From Isoetes taiwanensis (Eukaryota; Streptophyta; Lycopodiopsida; Isoetales; Isoetaceae), in contig JAJEKV010000064.1 of assembly GCA_021234155.1 (NCBI GenBank), forward strand, positions 5,146,001 through 5,210,000: a DNA stretch of 64,000 bases, in the 5' to 3' direction. The notes below the pieces were generated by a model that had not been told where the DNA came from, did not search any database, and worked only from the letters and a program-made list of their open reading frames with translations. The translations under genes and the position numbers were made by a program. Shown in pieces: positions 12,157-24,538 of the stretch. Position 1 is the stretch's first letter, and each line of letters opens with the position of its first letter.

Positions 12157-12341
12157 ATGGAAATCAAGGGGGGGATGGTGGGAATCAAGGGTACCATCAA
12201 GAGAGGAGTAAGCACCGATAAGAAGCTGATGAAGAACCCCAATTTTTCCATCGGTTTACTTGCCCAAAAATGCATGCAATGCATGGATGTTGTTCTTGCA
12301 CAAGAATCCCGATCCGATACTTGGATCAATAGCATTCTTTA
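12157..12341 (+). other. Open frame interrupted by the 12.2-kb element
   Basis: A frame beginning MEIKGGMVGIKGTIKRGVST runs into the left junction and stops at the first bases of the element (...SDTWINSIL). If the element and one copy of TCTTTA are removed, the frame stays open for about ten more codons into the right flank (24,539 onward). The insertion therefore probably hit transcribed or mobile-element DNA, but I recognise no product. Confidence 0.3.
12336..12341 (+). repeat. Target-site duplication, left copy (TCTTTA)
   Basis: TCTTTA lies directly outside the left inverted repeat and again at 24,533-24,538 outside the right one. It is short, but the position is exact on both sides. Confidence 0.7.
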
Positions 12342-12365
12342 AGTCGTATTTAATTAAAGTGGGAC
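12342..12365 (+). repeat. Left terminal inverted repeat (24 bp)
   Basis: Identical over 24 bp to the reverse complement of 24,509-24,532; one further A/T pair also matches but is counted in the target duplication. Confidence 0.85.
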
Positions 12366-13257
12366 TCATTCCATTCCCATTTTTTTTCGGAACCCGGTTA
12401 ATTTACATAAAAAGTAGCACCCCGACCCGAAAACTATCCTTAATTCGAATTTTTGAATAAAACTCTGAATCCGAGCTGTGCTGCAGTTTTCCCAGGTTCG
12501 CGAGTCGAGAACAAAAACAATGCAACTGAAACAAAGGAAATTCATTAAAGTTTGAATCCAAAGATGTAGTTGAAAAAGAATTTTTATTAATAAATTGAAC
12601 AGATACAATGTATTTTACATCGGACGCAGAGACCATGGCGGTCTTGTCGCACTACAAGCTACATCATCTTGGTAGGTGGTCCACCTTAGGGGATTAACTT
12701 GTGGCGCTTCTTCATGCCGCCCAGTAAGCCTTGGGGCAACCTCAAGAGTGTGGAATGCCTCACGTGGAGGTGCCTCTCGAGCTACCGGCCCACTCCCACC
12801 CGACTTCTCCACTCGCCTCCCCGCAGCCTTTCATCAATATGCTCCTTCCCCAACCTCCGCGGATGTTATGCAATGCTTGCAATATGCCTTGAGCTTCCTG
12901 GACTTTCTCTTTGTTCTTCGCCACGTTCTTTATTCCCAGGGTGTAGCGAGCAACCTCTGAATTCGCGAGCAACCTTGTCCCAAAGGCCGGGCAAGAGTGT
13001 AGCGTGACCGGGATCTGTGCCAGAACGGTATTTCTTCCGCCTTGAGCGGGATCCGTGCCGCCTGGAGCGGTCTCGTGGATGCCCGAAAGGATGCACGTGG
13101 CCGGTGTCGGATCTGTGCCTGAACCACCTGGAGCAAGGAGAGTATGATTAACAATTACGGTGTCATTAGTCAAAACGTAGAAAAGAACGTTGAAATCAAA
13201 TTACAACGGAGAACATTCATTCCATACAACTGCATCCAATGACGTGGGAAGTAGTGT

Positions 13258-13510
13258 CTTTCTCGACTCGCGAGTCGAGAAAGGCCCATAAAAGTCAAAG
13301 TACAACCATTCTCATTAGAATATGGTTGCATCCAATCACACACGGAAGCATACAAATGCTTTTGTCAACGAGACAACTAGCATGCCTTTCTCGACTCGCG
13401 AAGTCGAAAAGTCCCAGGAAACCCAATGTACAAGCATTATCATAATAGATTGTACAAGCATTTCATCAACACGACAGCATGCCTTTCTCGACTCGTGAGT
13501 CGAGAAAGGC
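13258..13510. repeat. Palindrome cluster 1 (three copies)
   Basis: Copies at 13,258-13,283 (perfect 26-bp palindrome around TCTCGACTCGCGAGTCGAGA), 13,385-13,411 (degenerate) and 13,481-13,510 (30 bp, one central mismatch). The unique sequences between copies differ. The cluster lies between coding-like segments of the minus-strand gene. Confidence 0.9.
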
Positions 13511-14489
13511 ATCGAAAACTCAATATACAAGTATATTCATTACAAAATGGTCAATACATGTGTTCACGCTCGATTACAATATTCACACAATTTGACTATC
13601 CGAAGCGGGGGTCACTCTTCTTGTTCACCAAAGTATTTGTCGTCCATAGCTTTCATGATCGGGCTTGCTCTCCTGGATCGGGTTCCGTGAGGCTCGGATA
13701 GTTCGTAAGCACATCGGCGACAAGAATGGCAAAGAGGGATTCCGCCAAGACAGACAGTAGTCCGAAGGACAACCACCTATCTGCTCTCATATTCTTCGTG
13801 TCGATATGGCTTAGCAATGATTGTATTTTATGCGTTATGATAGCACTTGTAGGCGGAGTCGCCTATGATCAGCGTGTTGTGTTTGCCATAGTCCCGAATT
13901 GCTCATAAACACCGGCCCAAATTTTCACCATTATAGGCTTCCCCTTTGTGATGGCTGGATCGAGGTCCTTCACATGCTCGACCCTTTCGCTTCCCCAAAC
14001 GAACTTGAACTTCAAAACTGAAATGCCGAGAACACCAAGAACATTGACAATATTTTTCTTTGCCATACAAGACCATATGCCCACTTCAATCCGTGCGTGC
14101 ACCGGCCAATAATTTCCTTAGCTCGGGCCCTCGGATACACTATTTTATGCTCTGCTTTCACCGGGATCTCATGAGGTGTTAATCTCGGGACGCGTCTTTG
14201 TCGTGGTATACCGCAGCTAATACTCCATTGACGCCAAATATTACAAGCTTGGTGGGACCACCGGATCCCGCTTGGAGTTTGGCTCACCCATATTTCCGGT
14301 TCATCGGGATCCAAATGCGGGATCATTAACTTTTCGTGTTCTTTTTTCTCGGGCCGCGGAGCGAGTGTCTTGCTCGATTTTCATTCTCATTCTCCTCGCG
14401 ACGTGAACCGTTGGAATCCATTGACAATGATCCCACTCGTTGAGCTCGAATTCCCCGAAATGATGACATCCGGCCGAAAAGGAACGAAG

Positions 14490-14568
14490 TTTTCTCGACT
14501 CGCGAGTCGAGAATGACAAGAAAAAGGTATTGAAAGGAACGAGTTTTCTCGACTCGCGAGTCGAGAAA
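14490..14568. repeat. Palindrome cluster 2 (two copies)
   Basis: Two copies, 14,490-14,513 and 14,545-14,568, sit in the intron directly after the donor at 14,593. They are separated by about 30 bp, and GGAACGA(A)GTTTTCTCG repeats before each. Confidence 0.9.
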
Positions 14569-14593
14569 CACCGCTAGAGCAAAGTAAACTCAC

Positions 14594-15252
14594 CTCAATC
14601 TCGTGTTTTCAATAATGTTTTCGCAAAGATTCTGGTCCAATCCTTCGACATCCTCGCCTCCGTCGTTTTTGTCTCCCTCGCCCTCGCCGCCTTTATCGCT
14701 TCCATTTGTCTTCCTCCCCTTGAAATGCTCATGAAGCAGATCCAAGTATGACCGAATGGTTTCAACCATGTCCTTATTTCCAACCACGGATATAGGTTTC
14801 ATTCCAAACAAAGATAGCCCCCCTCGAGAGAACAAAGCATTCATGTACCACTCGCGATACAATTTGATCTTCCTCACCAAGCCGGTTATGAAGTACTTGA
14901 TAACTCTTGGCCGGATAGGAATTCTATGTATAGGACCCGGTCGCACCATCCTTGCTGACCTTGTCCATCGATGGAACATCCTCCATAAACCTGCCCCCTT
15001 CCGTGGTTCCATCCGCTCTTGAGAGATCATGAACTTGTCGAGATAATGATGCTCGCTAGACCACCACTTATCCGTGTCGACCACCGATCTTGAAATCAAA
15101 ACCAAAACTATGTTGGCAAAGCTTGGTGCCTTCGGCAAGCCAAGTCCGCACTCATGATCAAGTTCGTATATGGAGTGCATGATCTTGTTGGTGAAGTTAA
15201 TATCACCGCCCATTGGGAGACAAAGAGCTTGTTTGATTGCCCCAAGATGCAA
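14594..15252 (-). CDS. Longest open exon of the accessory gene
   Basis: A 220-residue frame without stops. It contains GGDINFTNKIMHSIYELDHE, then ISRSVVDTDKWWSSEHHYLD, then RPGPIHRIPIRPRVIKYFIT and a basic, hydrophobic middle. The end is a Gly/Glu/Asp-rich linker and LCENIIENTRL. A good donor (GAG|GTGAGT) sits at 14,588-14,593, and a palindrome-rich intron follows. The text does not resemble a family I can name. Length and composition make chance unlikely. Confidence 0.5.
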
Positions 15253-16271
15253 AAGACAAGGAAACCGAAAGTATCCAGTCGGTCATGTCCGTTTCACGCC
15301 TTGTACCAATGCTCTATGTCAGCTTTGTCATAAAAAGGGTGGGGTCTTCGATCATATTGATGGCAAATAGTGCCACGGGTCCAGTGCGGCCTGCACCACC
15401 AAATCCCTTGTGTCCCAAAGTAACCAGAAATGGGGGAGCTATCGTCATTTTAAATGGGACCACCCCGAATCCAAGCTTCCTTTTCGTAATTGCCATAGCA
15501 CGCTCGTGGAAAGGAAGGGTTTTGACGCTACGCTTCAGCTTGGTGTTGATGTAGGGTTGACATAGACGGTTCAATTCCTTCATGTCTTCCTCATCAAGGG
15601 CAGCCTTTTCCTTGTAATAATCAAAATCATGGTATTCATTAGATGCAACGCTGCGTAACTCCGTGATGCCTTCTTCTCTAACGACGCCGCCGCTTTAGGA
15701 CCGTGGCATAATCCTTTAAGGCCCCCCACAATTTAGAACTCCCAGTCTTCCTCGCCAGGATTGTTCCCTCCAAGATTTTGCCTTGTAGGTCAAGCGCTTT
15801 TTGTCCGTGAGGCCCTCAGATCCTCTTCATGAACCGCTTGTCAAACAACTTGGGGTCGGGCCCCGCTTGGAAATTCTCCATTGCCGTCCTTCACCTTTGC
15901 CTCTTGTCCATTGAGCCCATATGTCAGTCCATTTCTCCCGTAACCGCCTCGGTAAGAATGAGGTCGTGTTGGTCCGAGAGAGACTCCCCGCCTTTCCTTG
16001 GTGTTCTCTTCTTCTTCTCCTCTTTCTTCCTCTCCCTCGCCATCTTCCTGTCCCTCCAGCAGAACATATCTGCATAGTTTCTCAAAGGTCTTCCACTTAT
16101 CCGAGGGAGCCCTGTTTCCTTTAGGACGCTGAGGACAACCCAATGCTTTCCACTGTTGCCTAGCGTGTATGATCCGTCGTCGATAAGGGCTGCATTCGCA
16201 TAATGTACCAATGTCAGAGCATGAAAGTATCTACAAACACCCAGGAATAAACAGTAAAATGTAGCCCCGGG

Positions 16272-16655
16272 TTTTCTCGACTCGCGAGTCGAGAAAGTCC
16301 CTTGAATGTCTAATTTTCTTTTACTTCTCTGGGTTTTCTCGACTCGAGAGTCGAGAAAGCTCTGCATCCTTTGATTTTCTGCATTACCCTGCCTTTCTCG
16401 ACTCGCGAGTCGAGAAACCCCAGTGATAATCGGCAAATGTTAGGATGGCAGGGCTTTCGACTCGCGAGTCGAGAAAGTCCCATTCAATGTCTAATTTTCT
16501 TTTTATCAAGTTAAGGGTTTTCTCGACTCGCGAAGTCGAAAGCTCCACATCCTTTGATTTTCTGTGTTACTCCGGGCTTTCTCGCGAAATCGAGAAACCC
16601 CATATAATCGGCAAATGTTAGGATGGCGAGGGCTTTTCGACTCGCGAAATCGAGA
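16272..16655. repeat. Palindrome cluster 3 (seven copies, higher-order array)
   Basis: Copies at about 16,273-16,296, 16,335-16,358, 16,394-16,417, 16,454-16,477, 16,518-16,541, 16,577-16,597 and 16,634-16,656, about 60 bp apart. The spacers recur in threes: GTCCC..TTGAATGTCTAATTTTCTTTT, GCTC..CATCCTTTGATTTTCTG and CCCC..ATAATCGGCAAATGTTAGG. The block is therefore a roughly 180-bp unit repeated about 2.3 times, each unit carrying three palindromes. Confidence 0.9.
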
Positions 16656-17257
16656 ATGGAAAGATCTCGAGAGTTATTTACCTTCGTAGGCGGCACTCAC
16701 GCTATTGTGTTCTCGGGCAAAGGGCTAATCTTTGGCCAGCGGGCCGGCGTCTCCGTAGAAAGAACTCGCGCACTCTCGCTTTTGGCATATCTATCCTTGA
16801 TCCTTTTGCGGCACCTCCTTTCTCCTCGTCTGCGCAATACTTGAGCGCCCTAATCGAATCTTCGACCGCCTACAACCCGTAACCGACGCTTTTTCTTCTT
16901 CAGATCTTCTCGGACTTCCAAATTTGAACAACTCACTGCCGACTGCTAAAAGGTATGACATCCGCGAGGCATTGATCTGCAGGATGTCGCACCATCATCG
17001 TTCGTAATCTCCGGCATGTGTCTTTGGATTAAATTCCCCGGGGTGAACAAGACGGCATCTCCGCGTGCAAACCTTCAGTAGCCTAATGTCCAAAGCAGCC
17101 TTGTGTGATATTCCCAACGGATAATAATCGAGCTAGACGCTCCATTTTCTCGTGCCCCTCTCACGAGAAATCCTGATCCGATCATCCGGATCGAGGTTTG
17201 GGGAGTCGACCATATCTTCGCCTCCTTCGCCATCCGACTCCTCCCGCAGTGGTGTCA

Positions 17258-17823
17258 TCATCCCCATCTTTGTTTTTGGTGGACTTTTTGTGTATGAACC
17301 ACAACATTCCCCATCGCAGAGTGTTGTAGAGTCTTCAAAGACAATGAGAAGTGAAGCTCCCCCGTATTGAACAGTTTTCCCCGACTCGAAATCTCCATAC
17401 CAAGCTCCCCGGATGTTAGGGTTCCGGCCTCCTTCATCCCTTCCGCATCCTTCCACCCAAGGTTCTGACAATTTAAAGGCGCCGGCCTTTTTTCGGTGCC
17501 CTTAGCCTTGCTCATGGAAGAGTGAGAATAATTTGAAACTGCTAATTTTTTGGTGCGATAGAACTTACTCTTCTGGCAGTCCTCGACATGTAGTGTTAAA
17601 TGCTTCGAATCTGGCGCAGAGACGGAGAGCACAACACCGATTTTTCTTGTACTTGTCTCCGAGCTCTTCTTGTCCCTTTGGTGTAGAAACAGATCTTTCT
17701 CCTTCCCACTTGTCGATACCTCGACATACCACCAAGAATCTGCCGCTGTTTCAAGAAGCTCTGTCTCCAGTCCCTCGATGACGAAGAATGGAGTTCGGCC
17801 AGTGATCACCAGTGAGTCCGAGG
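17258..17823 (-). CDS. Open exon of the accessory gene with a clear acceptor
   Basis: The acceptor TTCTTCTTGCAG precedes AFTSDSLVITGRTPFFVIEG, and the frame stays open for about 185 codons (SWWYVEVSTSGKEKDLFLHQ, then a basic Ser/Lys-rich region). I recognise no domain. A similar acidic/Lys-rich segment with donor GTGAGC lies just upstream on the minus strand (17,892-18,005), so the two were probably joined by removing a 68-bp intron. Confidence 0.45.
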
Positions 17824-18009
17824 TGAATGCTGCAAGAAGAACGGATGGATCAGTTAAGGTATTCCGACAAAAGAAAAACCTCAGAGCTCACCTGGGGTGT
17901 TTGTCTTCTTCTTCTTCTTTGCCGGTGGCGAAGCATCCCCTCCCTACCGCTTCTTGGACGGAGTCATTTCTATATGCCCTCTCATCCTCTTCGGACGACT
18001 CTGTAAATT

Positions 18010-18870
18010 AAGTTTCCTCCGCGTTGTGAGTTTTAGGACTGCATGTAAAAAAGATCGGGCGTGTTCTTTAATTTGAAGTTAAGGACATGCAATCATTTAT
18101 GAAAAAAGCGGGCTAAAAAGTACAAAGACGGCCCGGCTTTTAGCCCGCCCAAACACTATTTCAAATTGAATCACATCAAGGGACTAAGTGAGTGGAGCGT
18201 GAGTTTATCTTCCTCGCGCATTGGGGAACTTCGAGGTCGGAGGGATCATCGACCGTGAGCGACTTCCGAATGGCGCCGCGACGCGAAGTCCGCTAACGGC
18301 GCCTTTGCATATGTGTGTTTTTTCCCGACCGCGGCCCTATTGCAAAGCAGTTGAATTGATCGATGAGCACGGAGCTAAGGTAGGAAGCGGAGAGGAGCTG
18401 CCGGACACCGAACTCTACATCACTGCGGCGCCATGGAAAGGGGATACGGAGAATCGCAGTTGATACGAAAGTAATAGATGCGAATACACTCTTGAAGAGA
18501 CCGACGTAAGAAGCAAAGACTCGGGTGAGGCTGCGGGATCCGTGATACGCTGGCCCAAGGAATTACCGCGTGAAGAGGTGAGTTTCGAGATGCCTATGTT
18601 ATTTCTCTTGTAGAACATGCCGTATGTGTTTAAATAATGGAACTGCCGATAAGCTCGACGATTTCAAGTTCGTGTTTCCTTGTCCAAAGATTTCTCCGGC
18701 GAGATGATTTACTCTCTAGGTTGAGAGATGCTCTCGGCAAAACATTGGATCGAGGGGTAAAGAACAGCCCGTTTTAGGTCTGCTTTTCCATGGACCTGCT
18801 TACTTGGAATGTTGTACATAGATCGGAGGCTAGGACTAAGGCCCGGGAGATGCGGTTCAAATGCATCCTC
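18010..18870. other. Gene-poor part of the 12.2-kb element
   Basis: Only short frames, for example + strand 18,221-18,463 (MGNFEVGGIIDRERLPNGAA...), without recognisable domains. It probably belongs to a long intron of the minus-strand gene. Confidence 0.4.
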
Positions 18871-18874
18871 TTGT

Positions 18875-19930
18875 AGTTAGTCGGAGGGGCCTCCATCTGT
18901 CCGAACCACTCCTCTTCGCAATATTCGAGGAAGATGGTTCAAGGAGAGTGGCTCGAGGCAGGCTAGAGGCACTTGGGACTAAAAAAAAGGAGAATAGAAA
19001 GTCAAGATTTTGTAGAGAAATGCAAGCCTTGGCTTCCTCTGTGGTTTCCACGTGGTTAGTTGTAGAGGCCTCCACCGGTCCCAGAGCCCCTCCCTTCGCA
19101 CTATTCGGCCTAAGATGGTTCGAAGGAGAGTGACTCGACCGGGTCGAGGCCACCGCTACTGCATAACACAATGTGAGAATTGGTCGGCTAAGGGATTCTC
19201 AACTTGCGAAGTCGAGAATGCTTGGCTTCCTGTTACATTCTCGACTCGCCAAAGTCGAAATGCCTTGGCCATCCGAACTCCCAAGCAGTACACATGGAGT
19301 GCCTTGGGTAAGGCATTCCCCACTCGTCAGCCGAGAATGCATACTGACAAGCTCACGGAATGCATGCATTCGACCACACACAAGAATTGGGTTGCTAAGA
19401 GTTGGCCTCGGCAGACAAAAACACTTCCCTCTCGCAATGTCCGGGGAAGATAGAAGGAGAGTGTTTAAGACCTGCCTGCAGGCCAGCTCTAGAGTGCACT
19501 TGAGTCCTGCGTTTTTCTCGACTCACGGTCGAAAAGCAGCCAAAGAACTCAGGGTTAGTCGCCGAGGCCTCCACCCAATCGTGAGCCCATCCCCTTCGCA
19601 ATATTCGCCAAGATGGTTCGGGGAGACGGTCTTTGATTGGGTAGAGGCCACTGCGACCACAATAAGGAGAATTGGGTTGCTAAGAGTTGGCCCGCACGAT
19701 CAAAACCACTTCCCTTCGCAATGTCCGAGGAAGATAGAAGGAGAGTGGTTGAGACCGTCTGCAGCCAGCTCGAAAACACTAGGAGCCTCGCGTTTTCGAC
19801 TCACGAAGTCGAAAAGCGCCAACACTCAGATGGTTAGTCGCCAGGCCTCCACCCGGTCGGGCCCTCTTCGCAATATTCGGCGAGCATGGTTCAAGGAGAG
19901 TGGCTCAGACCGGTTGGAGGCACCGCGCGA
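18875..19930 (+). repeat. Interspersed minisatellite with two unit types
   Basis: A core of about 50 bp (CTTCGCAATATTCG...AAGATGGTTC...GGAGAGTGGCTC) occurs at about 18,909, 19,088, 19,590 and 19,862. A sister type (CTCGCAATGTCCG...GAAGATAGAAGGAGAGTG) occurs at about 19,424 and 19,707. GAGGCCTCCACC precedes most units and GAGGCCAC or GAGGCAC follows. The order A-A-B-A-B-A suggests expansion in blocks. No coding role seen. Confidence 0.75.
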
Positions 19931-20205
19931 CGGTACAAAGAGCCATTGGCAGAGTACATTCTCGACTCACGCAGTCCAGAAGGCCGCAGCAGGTTCTAAA
20001 GAATGTGAAGACATTGGGTAGTCGGCAATCTCGGAATCACGAAGTCGAGAATCCCTCAACCAACAAATTAGCGTAGTGTACACTCCCTCTTCTCGCCTCG
20101 CTGAAAGTCGAGAAGTTCTCGACTTCGCCAGCCGGAGAAGAAGGCCTGTACTTCCTTGACTGTTGGCAAGCTGAAGTATTCTCAACTCGCCACTCCCTTC
20201 TGCAT
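19195..20205. repeat. Palindrome cluster 4 (about ten degenerate copies)
   Basis: Degenerate forms (CATTCTCGACTCGCCAAAGTCG, TTTTCGACTCACGAAGTCGAAAA and others) at about 19,197, 19,237, 19,315, 19,514, 19,793, 19,960, 20,034, 20,090, 20,115 and 20,178. Most keep the two arms but have a mutated centre, and they look older than clusters 1-3. Confidence 0.75.
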
Positions 20206-21149
20206 GTCTCCTGAAGTGGATTTGCTGTGAGTTAGAAATGGAGATTCTGTGAAGCAATTCCTATTCTGAATTTTGCCGGAGAAAGACATTCCTAGTTATT
20301 TTCTCATTTAATGCTCGCAATATCTTACTTCCTAACACCGGGTCTCGATGATTTCTCTCGGTTGCTTGCTACTATAACCACTATTCTCACTTGTGCATGT
20401 ACAATGTATTCAATTCAACCACAAGCAAGAAAAAAGATAACAAAAAATGTAAAACAATACAAAGATTATTAAGATTAATGAGAAAAACAGAGAAAAGTGG
20501 AGAACAAGATGAGAAAAAGTGGAGAACAAGATGTAAAAATGAGATTAAAAAAGGGTATGATATTACAAAAACATACCTGGAAGATTTGCTGGATGAGGAG
20601 GAGGCTTCCGACTTCGATTCCATGTGGGTATAGTCGTTGACAAAGCGTGAATAAGGATTTGCCTGTCAGAAATTGTATCGGGGATTAATAAGAGCCTCTA
20701 ACAAATGTAATATAAGAAAAATGCACTAAAAGACTTACGTAAAACTAAAAAGCAAAGACAAAAAGGGCCTCACTTTCTTCTCAGCGGTAACGCCTCGCCA
20801 ACAATGAACTCGCTACAGAACTTCGGCGCCTGAAGCGCCCCCGGACAACACCAAGCCGCCATAAGATGGCGCCGAATCGCTTCGGTTTGATCGATCGCCT
20901 GATTGGTAAAGCCCCTAAGGAAACAGTGGAGCTCAAGAGTGATCGAGAAAAACAGGGAGGAAGAATGGTCGGGAGAGGAAGAGGGTGCGCTTACTCAGGC
21001 TGCACCCTCAACCTCGTAAAAGTGCAATAATATACTGCCACACGGTGGGCCATGCCCTCCATGACGGGGCGGTCGCGGGATTACCGACGCGGGTTTCATC
21101 CTTCAAAGCCTCCAAGAGGCTTACGCGGCCATGCCAAGATATGAAAGGG

Positions 21150-21400
21150 TTGGTTATATGTTTATATATGTTGTCTTATGTATTTAATAAGGTTTCAATG
21201 GTTGAATAGTATCAATGGTATATATGGTTACAATGTTCACATATGGTTTAGAATGAGTGTGGTTGTATGCTTTAATATGGTTATATGATTTTAGTTAATA
21301 TGGTTGTATGATTTAATATGGTTATATTTAATATGTTTGTATGGTTTTATATGGTTCATATGGTCATATTTGTGGTGTTTGGGGCTATATGGTTTTAATG
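21150..21400. repeat. Degenerate TATGGTT-rich tract
   Basis: Many copies of variants of AATATGGTTGTATG and TATATGGTT over about 250 bp. It sits between the starts of the two divergent genes of the 12.2-kb element, where a promoter region would be expected. Confidence 0.7.
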
Positions 21401-21409
21401 TGAGCTTTT

Positions 21410-24337
21410 TCATTCAGGGAGCATGTGAGATGAGTAAAATGGAGCCAGGGGAAGTCCAAAGGAGGCCATTGCCCTAGGCTCCAATGGAGGAGGATGGGTT
21501 GCCTTTTGTTGCACCCTTGCAAACGGATGGTATTCTGCAGAGGGCATAATAACCTGCAGTTGATCCATTTGATAGTGTGAATGATGAGAGGCCGGGAGAT
21601 GAACATCTTGGAGTTGGCATTGTGAAGCTTCTTATCGGGTTGATACTATCATGTCCCGGGGAAGCTCTAGTGATTGCATTGTGTGCTCGGGGTGCCGGAG
21701 TCCCAAGCTCGGTTAGAGATGGCCAATTAGATTTATTACACACAAGAATGGTGATACTCTAGAATGCCCCATTGAACTACACACCCCAAGGCCCACCCAA
21801 GGCCATGTGGAAGATTTGGTGGTCGATGAGCATCCTTTGATCACAAGGAAGAGACGCTATGTCTTTCATAAAAGGCAGCCAAAGGTGCCCAAGAGGCCTA
21901 GAAGTGACAAATATTTAGAAAGGATGGAAAGTATGGCACCAACCAAAGAAAACCCGAGGCAATTAGGGGACAAGAGTGTTGCAACCCTAGATTGCACAAA
22001 GGCATTACAATGTGGATGACCTCGTGCGATAAGGTCCCAATACATTGGACAGCTTCAAAAAGATAGGATTAATTTCATTTTACTCCTTGTGTAGGAATTC
22101 CAAATATGATGAAAACACAGGACGGGCCGCTATATCAATTGAGGGGAATGAAGGTATGTATGAGAGCATTGAGATGGATTCTTGGGGTGAGCAAGTCTTC
22201 ATTTTACGAGATCTTTGGGAGCAGGTTAGAAAAGGGCACACTTTGTTCCAACATGGTAATGCACTCACTTTGAAACCTAGAGCAAATACTCTAAAGGCCA
22301 TTGCGTCTTGAGAGCTTTGTGAGATACATGTCTCAATCTATGCCCCACAAGTCGAGAGGTGAACGAAGCACGGTGTGCGAGTGGTGCAAAAGAGTGTTGC
22401 CACAACACTATATCCAAAAGGAGTGCCTTAAGGAGGTCAACTCCATCCTAGAAACTACCGGAGGTAGGCCTCTTTCTCAATCACATTTCAAAGAGTTATG
22501 GAGCACTCACTTCTTTCTGGACGTGAGTGTCCTACAACACATGCCATTCTCAAAGTGCAACACTTGTATTCAACTCAAGGATACACTTGCATCAACCGCA
22601 ATAGAGAAAGAAAGAATGGCAATTAGGGAGCAATTTGCAGATCACCAAAGGGACCAAATATCATGTAGACAGTTGTATTGGCGAAGGAGAACATTTTCTC
22701 GAGATGCAAATGGACAAATTTTTGTGTATAATTCATGATAAGATGGACCAACACAAGACTTTCTTGCCAAAGCTAGATCCTTTACCCAAGCGTTGTCAAA
22801 ACGCTTTTCGGATGAAAGTAAGTCCAAGGTGTATTAACACATGGTCATGGAACTGGAACATATGGTCATTTTGTGCTTGATCTATGGAGAGATGATCCAA
22901 ACTTCCATGTGAGCTCTATTTTCAAGTGCTTGAGAACACTAGAGAAAGGATCGATAGAAGGGAGGAGGTATTCCCCTTCAAAGACCCATTTTGAGGCTTT
23001 GATGGATGATCAACCGCTTTGTTCTGAAAGGCGGATAAAAAGCTCACATCCAAGGTGCCTAGTGAATCAAGGAGGACTTGGGATGATTTCCCCTTACTAG
23101 AGAAATCACTGCCTGAGGAGCTATGTGTTCAGTTGGACAACTGTTGGAAAGAAAACAAGAATAGATGGATGTTTGGGGCAATGTCATACTTGACAGCAGT
23201 GGGAGTATTCAAAGTTGTGAAAGTGGGATTCATGATGGTTGGGCATACGCATGATGATATTGATGGATTCTTTGGAACTTTCTCCACCAAGCTCAAGAGA
23301 GAAAACGTGACCACTCTCCCTGAACTAATGGATGTGTTTGAGAGCTGCATTGACCCCAACCCAATGGCTTTCTTGATGGATGAGGTTGCAGATTGGAAAT
23401 CATTTGTAGAAGGATACTTGCTAGATGGCAAGGACCAGTTGACAGGACACACAAAGCCACTTCAATTCAAGTTTTGGGTTAGGGATGGAATACCAATCAT
23501 GCAATATAAGTGGAGACCAGGTGACAAGTTGTGGATGCCTGTACAAGGTATCGAAGTTGTGGCAAAGGGGTTTCTTCTGGTGAAGTTCTCATTCCTAAAG
23601 GGCAGCCAAAACCACTACCTCCCTTCAAGATAGTCAAAGACTCTAGCCAACCTGGTGAAGGGCATCAAGGATTACATAACGACCGATGATGTTCGAAATG
23701 GAAAGCACACCTCCACTCTTAAGAAAAATCAAATGGACTCCCTAATCAAGTCATTGGGAGAAAGTTGTAACATGCTTAGAAACCGAATGACCATGTGGGA
23801 GGAGCTAAGAGACGGGTTCTTGCCGTGAGTCAAGATGGGAGGGTTCTCAAGGTGCAAGCACGTCTAAGAATGCTCACTTGGGTCCCAAGTGGTTTGTGGG
23901 GAAGTAAGGCCTCAAAGCTGAAGTGGTTTGATCTTCCCGAGTGGGATCCCTTTGAGGACATCAAGGAAGGATACTTTGTGCTAGTAAGGCCTGATGATGA
24001 GGACCGGCCCAATATGGTTAGGGGTGGCACTCTCTCCGATGTGACCACCACTATGCCCGATGGAGAGGAGTTAGCCCTGGATTCCAAATTCAATATTGGG
24101 AGCCCATTGGGAGGCACAAGAAGGGCAACTTGAAGGAGAGCAATACACCGATCACTTGGGGAGAAGAAGTGGAGGCCAAATTATGCTGACCCTCAAAGGA
24201 GGGAATTGGTGGAGTGTGTGGTATGGTCATATCCAAGTTCTCACATTGCAAAAGACAACACACACAAGATCCCAAGAAAGGAGATGGACAAGGCCATGAG
24301 CAACCTCCATGCTATATCATTGTATGAGGGTGCATAA
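21410..24337 (+). pseudogene. Transposase-like gene of the 12.2-kb element (DUF7869-type)
   Basis: The parts appear in order: a charged N-terminal region; RSQYIGQLQKDRINFIL (near 22,030); a Cys-rich block with VCEWCKRVLPQHY and FSKCNTCIQLKDTL (22,370-22,600); a first acidic motif, CIIHDKMDQHKTFLPKL (22,720-22,770); a second, QLDNCWKENKNRWMF (about 23,130-23,175); VGHTHDDIDGFFGTFSTKL (about 23,235-23,295); and a tail ending LYEGA-stop at 24,335-24,337. Proteins with this series of motifs are, from memory, grouped as DUF7869 and look like DDE/RNase H-fold nucleases, so a role in cutting and joining the element's ends is likely. The best open part (23,055-23,633) has 192 codons. Several frame changes show it is no longer functional, unless some are introns. 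Confidence 0.65.
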
Positions 24338-24508
24338 TATTGAGAAGTTTGAAAACTTTCTCAACTAGTGGTTTGTAAAATTTATGAGGAAAACAAGTAA
24401 CCCAATTCTATGTGTGTCATGTGTAATTCTATTCAAGCAATCAATTCAGAAATTTCTTTTATGGTGTGTGAGTCCCATTTTCAGTCCGAGTCCCAAAATT
24501 CAAGATTT

Positions 24509-24532
24509 GTCCCACTTTAATTAAATACGACT
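24509..24532 (-). repeat. Right terminal inverted repeat (24 bp)
   Basis: Reverse complement of 12,342-12,365 without mismatch. It is followed directly by TCTTTA at 24,533-24,538. Confidence 0.85.
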
Positions 24533-24538
24533 TCTTTA

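Follow-up and report, generated by a model that had tools for sequence, protein, structure and literature searches.

A large, very numerous transposon family in Isoetes taiwanensis with DUF7869 as its probable transposase and an opposite-strand partner gene

According to the passages on Sola in PMC10741241, transposons of this superfamily combine a DDD transposase with a 4-bp target-site duplication (TSD), terminal inverted repeats (TIRs) of 11-1,124 bp and a length of 2-9 kb (some >15 kb) and occur in the moss Physcomitrella. As portrayed in part of PMC12730594, the CMCT clade (EnSpm/CACTA, Mirage, Chapaev, Transib, Plavaka) mostly has 5'-CA..TG-3' termini and TSDs of 2-5 bp, and Zisupton/KDZ are TIR elements of eukaryotes with 8-bp TSDs. 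Further papers on Sola, new superfamilies and lycophytes were consulted (PMC4455052, PMC3985635, PMC10045372, PMC8566536). Here we describe an element at positions 12341-24533 of a 64,000-nucleotide stretch (the window) of the Isoetes taiwanensis genome (contig JAJEKV010000064.1). This element belongs to a large, very numerous transposon family. We consider it very probable that the family is of the cut-and-paste, RNase H-fold, D-D-D type, with DUF7869 as the transposase and an opposite-strand partner protein most likely as an accessory factor. The machine is of an ordinary kind, i.e., a DDD cut-and-paste transposon, and its transposase family is unnamed by Pfam.

The limits of the element are set by the following features, with both duplications placed by flank comparison.

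12337..12340, no strand: left TSD, CTTT
12341..12365, + strand: left 25-bp TIR, AAGTCGTATTTAATTAAAGTGGGAC
24509..24533, - strand: right 25-bp TIR
24534..24537, no strand: right TSD, CTTT

The two TIRs are perfect over 25 bp (AAGTCG...GGGAC), and their 24-mer is absent from the rest of the window (expectation from shuffles, 0). The original prediction of identical inverted ends is thereby confirmed, with a repeat of 25 rather than 24 bp. Its limits of 12336-24538 take in flank, and its 6-bp duplication, TCTTTA, needs the terminal A of each end to be counted as flank, which shifts the boundary by one base; we regard the longer match as a chance extension at the window copy. This correction matters because a 4-bp duplication together with a DDD transposase points to Sola.

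A search of the window's own genome (1,658,258,908 bases in 1,110 contigs) revealed the exact 25-mer 1,102 times in forward and 1,115 times in reverse orientation, and the pattern read backwards 0 times. With over 2,000 exact ends, the family is a sizeable component of this 1.66-Gb genome. The left 300 bp of the element are matched at 99-100% identity in all 40 scored matches (the best 40 of 1,881 candidates). For 100 of the 2,217 exact places we then looked for neighbours within 15 kb; among the matches listed, 26 neighbouring pairs face inward and 1 outward. All 26 inward pairs were fetched, giving a set of 27 with the window. When the boundary is placed at AAGTCG, 24 of these 27 pairs have identical 4-bp flanks (one within an A run) and one has a 5-bp match (TGTAC), while no flank match was found at the remaining two (L011 and L043/L044). 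Crossed pairs, used as a control, matched in 4 of 702 cases. The family is accordingly described by 25-bp ends of the form AAG...CTT and by duplications of 4 bp, rarely 5 bp. Two long copies (G000:C128:91575-106371 and 130592-141805) share identical flanks, so the insertion-bearing segment has probably been duplicated and 26 of the 27 pairs are distinct.

The fetched pairs fall into 12 short (3.4-5.8 kb) and 14 long (11.0-14.8 kb) copies. Among the short ones, 11 have only the end stretches in common with the window (for two of them, only one end exceeded the threshold), and no protein could be assigned to the interiors of the 4-kb copies. The twelfth, L020 (5,109 bp), has an internal deletion but retains the frame of the HAD domain and a large part of DUF7869. 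The original prediction had counted widespread ends without the interior against a complete unit. Such ends do occur, but gene-bearing copies exist beside those that share only the ends, and we therefore see here the common coexistence of autonomous and non-autonomous copies. A second complete copy (L079+L075; 11,767 bp, duplication AAAG) is 92% identical to the window in the DUF7869 region and 80-86% identical in the larger matched pieces elsewhere. Furthermore, the last 1.7 kb of the window DUF7869 gene has at least 41 genome matches at 92-100% identity (best 40 of 2,018 candidates scored). Ends, duplications and genome copies together bear out a complete DNA transposon with many other copies; the genome search that had been proposed for both ends returned them in number, with 4-bp rather than 6-bp duplications. 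The exact 24-mer was not found in one scan of viral contigs.

The gene near the right end carries the domain that we propose as the transposase.

21310..24340, + strand: DUF7869 gene, probable transposase (left limit, start of similarity to L075; right limit approximate; frames broken by many small indels)
22737..22739, + strand: putative first catalytic D codon (IIHDKMD), role assigned from the model
23136..23138, + strand: putative second catalytic D codon (QLDN), role assigned from the model
23262..23264, + strand: putative third catalytic D codon (GHTHDDID, last D), role assigned from the model

The gene matches Pfam PF25273 (E 9.5e-40, window:23028-23630) and contains the predicted HDKMDQHKT, QLDNCWKENKN and VGHTHDDID motifs. 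The Pfam name gives no function, and our literature searches for DUF7869 and for four spellings of the GHTH motif found no paper. Structure prediction, which had been suggested for other copies of the family, gave an RNase H fold with an acidic triad in a database relative only, i.e., not in another copy of the window family. The D-D-D set is conserved in 67 of 69 relatives. Together, fold and triad support the reading of DUF7869 as an RNase H-type transposase, and DUF7869 is under purifying selection. The window gene carries many frame-shifting indels relative to its 92%-identical copy; its broken frames therefore suggest movement in trans, unless many of the indels are assembly errors. A widespread domain of unknown function thus becomes a probable transposase whose ends and duplication are defined, and annotated DUF7869 genes of plants and animals can therefore be examined as transposons.

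At 17 of 30 DUF7869 loci in the genome a right end was recognisable by eye, with similarity breaking off either exactly at ...CTT or within a few bases beyond it; none was recognised in the other 13. The 17 ends read ACGACTT, GCGACTT, GAGCTT, GTGCTT, CATGCTT or CCTGCTT and are preceded by a related stretch (GTCCATATTTAATGAAATTGTGCTT-like beside GTCCCACTTTAATTAAATACGACTT). In a tree of 88 sequences (24 of the 30 loci plus relatives), the 15 loci whose end is known cluster according to its type, i.e., the subfamilies of DUF7869 vary together with the end sequences. A TIR search within 1.5 kb of 30 DUF7869 loci found none; in both elements where the other end was later located (L079+L075 and L068+L083) it lies ~10 kb away. 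The latter, one of the loci with a known end, is a complete element of a second, diverged family (11,609 bp, 5-bp flanks AATGG / AATGG). Its DUF7869 frame of 997 residues lies near the right end, and its partner frames run on the other strand.

L068+L083, ends: left AAGCACAGTTTCATTATTTATGGAC, right GTCCATATTTAATGAAACTGTGCTT
Second end type: AAGCACAATTTCATTAA...

The partner gene of the window element, together with a set of internal palindromes, occupies the left part of the element.

16690..17890, - strand: partner, first large exon, includes the ParB-like part (frames broken, limits approximate)
14590..16260, - strand: partner, middle exons, methyltransferase-like by eye
13611..14265, - strand: partner, last exon, NIF/FCP1-type HAD domain (limits approximate; frame broken in the window but open in both L020 and L075)
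13261..16474, no strand: eight 20-bp palindromes TCTCGACTCGCGAGTCGAGA, starting at 13261, 13486, 14493, 14547, 16275, 16337, 16396 and 16455

The NIF/FCP1 domain in the last exon of L075 scored above the Pfam cut-off (PF03031, 40.5 bits vs 21.8, E 2.9e-10), and L020 keeps this exon open over 223 residues. Both read FDVNG where DxD, which we take to be the catalytic motif, is expected; because the second D is N, phosphatase activity is doubtful. An earlier L075 exon reads FWVVDGQHSVRAA, taken by eye for a ParB-type motif, and a ParB-like PHROGs family (phrog_1033) weakly matches at this place (249-338, E 0.031); Pfam found no ParB domain in the L075 partner or the second-family frames scanned. 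This exon is 29% identical to the second-family partner over 167 residues (E 1.7e-16) in the same relative orientation, so the pairing of transposase and partner looks old. The predicted multi-exon gene is in this way partly upheld, through one exon that recurs in a diverged element. Four second-family partner frames gave nothing above the Pfam cut-off and no NIF. One of them, in L083, contains VLDFFSGG, with a weaker counterpart in L075; by its residues it may be a methyltransferase motif I; Pfam found no methyltransferase. A composite of the partner (1,087 residues) had no relative among the best 8,000 candidates, where spliced genes may be poorly represented, and a PDB sequence search with A1, the ParB-like exon and the methyltransferase-like exon gave nothing convincing. 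An NCBIfam search was equally unconvincing. The partner makes it possible to test whether a eukaryotic transposon uses an accessory protein that has a ParB-like part. Five of the palindromes are exact and three differ from TCTCGACTCGCGAGTCGAGA by one mismatch; in our gene model they fall in introns and the 3' flank of the partner, and either the partner or the transposase might bind them. Neither these palindromes nor the indels of the DUF7869 gene figure in the original prediction.

TIRs, a TSD and an RNase H fold with an acidic triad (the fold on a relative) mark a probable cut-and-paste transposon. As we infer its steps, the DUF7869 protein would bind the transposon ends, its D-D-D site would cut them, and the 3' ends would be joined with a 4-bp stagger, to be filled in by the host. 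The partner protein (ParB-like part, HAD/NIF and possibly a methyltransferase-like part) would most likely bind the internal palindromes or chromatin. If DUF7869 were instead a passenger, with the ends moved by a transposase of another superfamily, the 11 short copies with ends but no DUF7869 would be accommodated, since some transposase must act on them in trans. This is very improbable, however, given the co-variation of DUF7869 subfamilies with end sequences, the predicted fold with its conserved D-D-D and the purifying selection. The partner, for its part, might be a captured host gene or fragment that has no role in transposition. NIF is a common host domain, it has a dN/dS (ratio of nonsynonymous to synonymous substitution rates) of 0.35, it was not found in the scanned frames of the second family, and the partner is missing from the short copies examined except L020. 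Against capture stands the homologous ParB-like exon, in the same relative orientation, of the diverged second family, and we consider capture rather unlikely.

If the family is indeed a DDD cut-and-paste transposon led by DUF7869, it belongs either to Sola or to an undescribed superfamily. Sola, compared by description only, fits best among described families: 4-bp duplications (24 of 27 pairs), a DDD transposase (67 of 69 relatives and the model), 25-bp TIRs inside the published range, a compatible size and occurrence in non-flowering plants, with a moss DUF7869 protein known from Ceratodon (P0005). That DUF7869 is simply the Pfam name for the Sola transposase, and the family a new, large member that carries an additional gene, has close to an even chance in our estimate. 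Against this, Sola is said to occur in bacteria, yet a single pattern-based DUF7869 scan of prokaryote genomes yielded three loci, all on contigs of metagenome-assembled genomes (MAGs) and perhaps eukaryotic contamination; and the description in the relevant passages of PMC10741241 mentions no partner gene, whereas the present element has a ParB-like/HAD partner and internal palindromes. More tentatively, DUF7869 may be a separate, undescribed DDD superfamily of land plants, molluscs, sea urchins and protists. Its large plant branch would carry an old ParB-like accessory protein (HAD, possibly methyltransferase-like parts) that acts on internal palindromes or chromatin, as a helper in transposition or in epigenetic control that is of a prokaryotic DNA-segregation type. 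The first outcome would give Sola a new and large branch that has an accessory gene, and the other would make a new superfamily; the original prediction of an undescribed family is borne out as far as the literature searched reaches.

EnSpm/CACTA and relatives are large, carry a second gene and contain internal repeats. The present element resembles them in these features and in a TSD within 2-5 bp, but its termini are AAGTCG..CGACTT instead of CA..TG. Pfam found no CACTA transposase above cut-off in ten window frames and nine relatives, and CACTA and Plavaka are not favoured, on termini or TSD. Zisupton/KDZ, likewise TIR elements of eukaryotes, are not favoured either: an 8-bp flank match occurs in 0 of 27 pairs, and the duplication here is 4 bp.

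Several further observations concern the two genes. Some plant-type DUF7869 proteins (P0002, P0003 and others) have an N-terminal PF26133 in precomputed annotation that hmmscan did not list, and the P0002 N-terminus has a sub-threshold match to Transposase_23 (TNP1/En/Spm; E 0.023). A contig labelled as a cyanobacterial MAG, perhaps eukaryotic contamination, holds a DUF7869 gene (L080) that is 29% identical to P0001. In the second-family partner (L083:1794-3425, + strand, ~position 1809), an in-frame ATG is followed by ARTKQTAR, the first eight residues of histone H3; it is a possible histone-tail mimic, and among all fetched loci and the window it was found only in L083. Palindromes of 20-24 bp (TCTCGACTCGCGAGTCGAGA) recur inside both the window element and L079/L075. 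Finally, a block of direct repeats that have diverged lies between the two genes (window:18900-20130); CTCGACT, a half-palindrome, and the unit CCCTTCGCAATATTCG occur in it.
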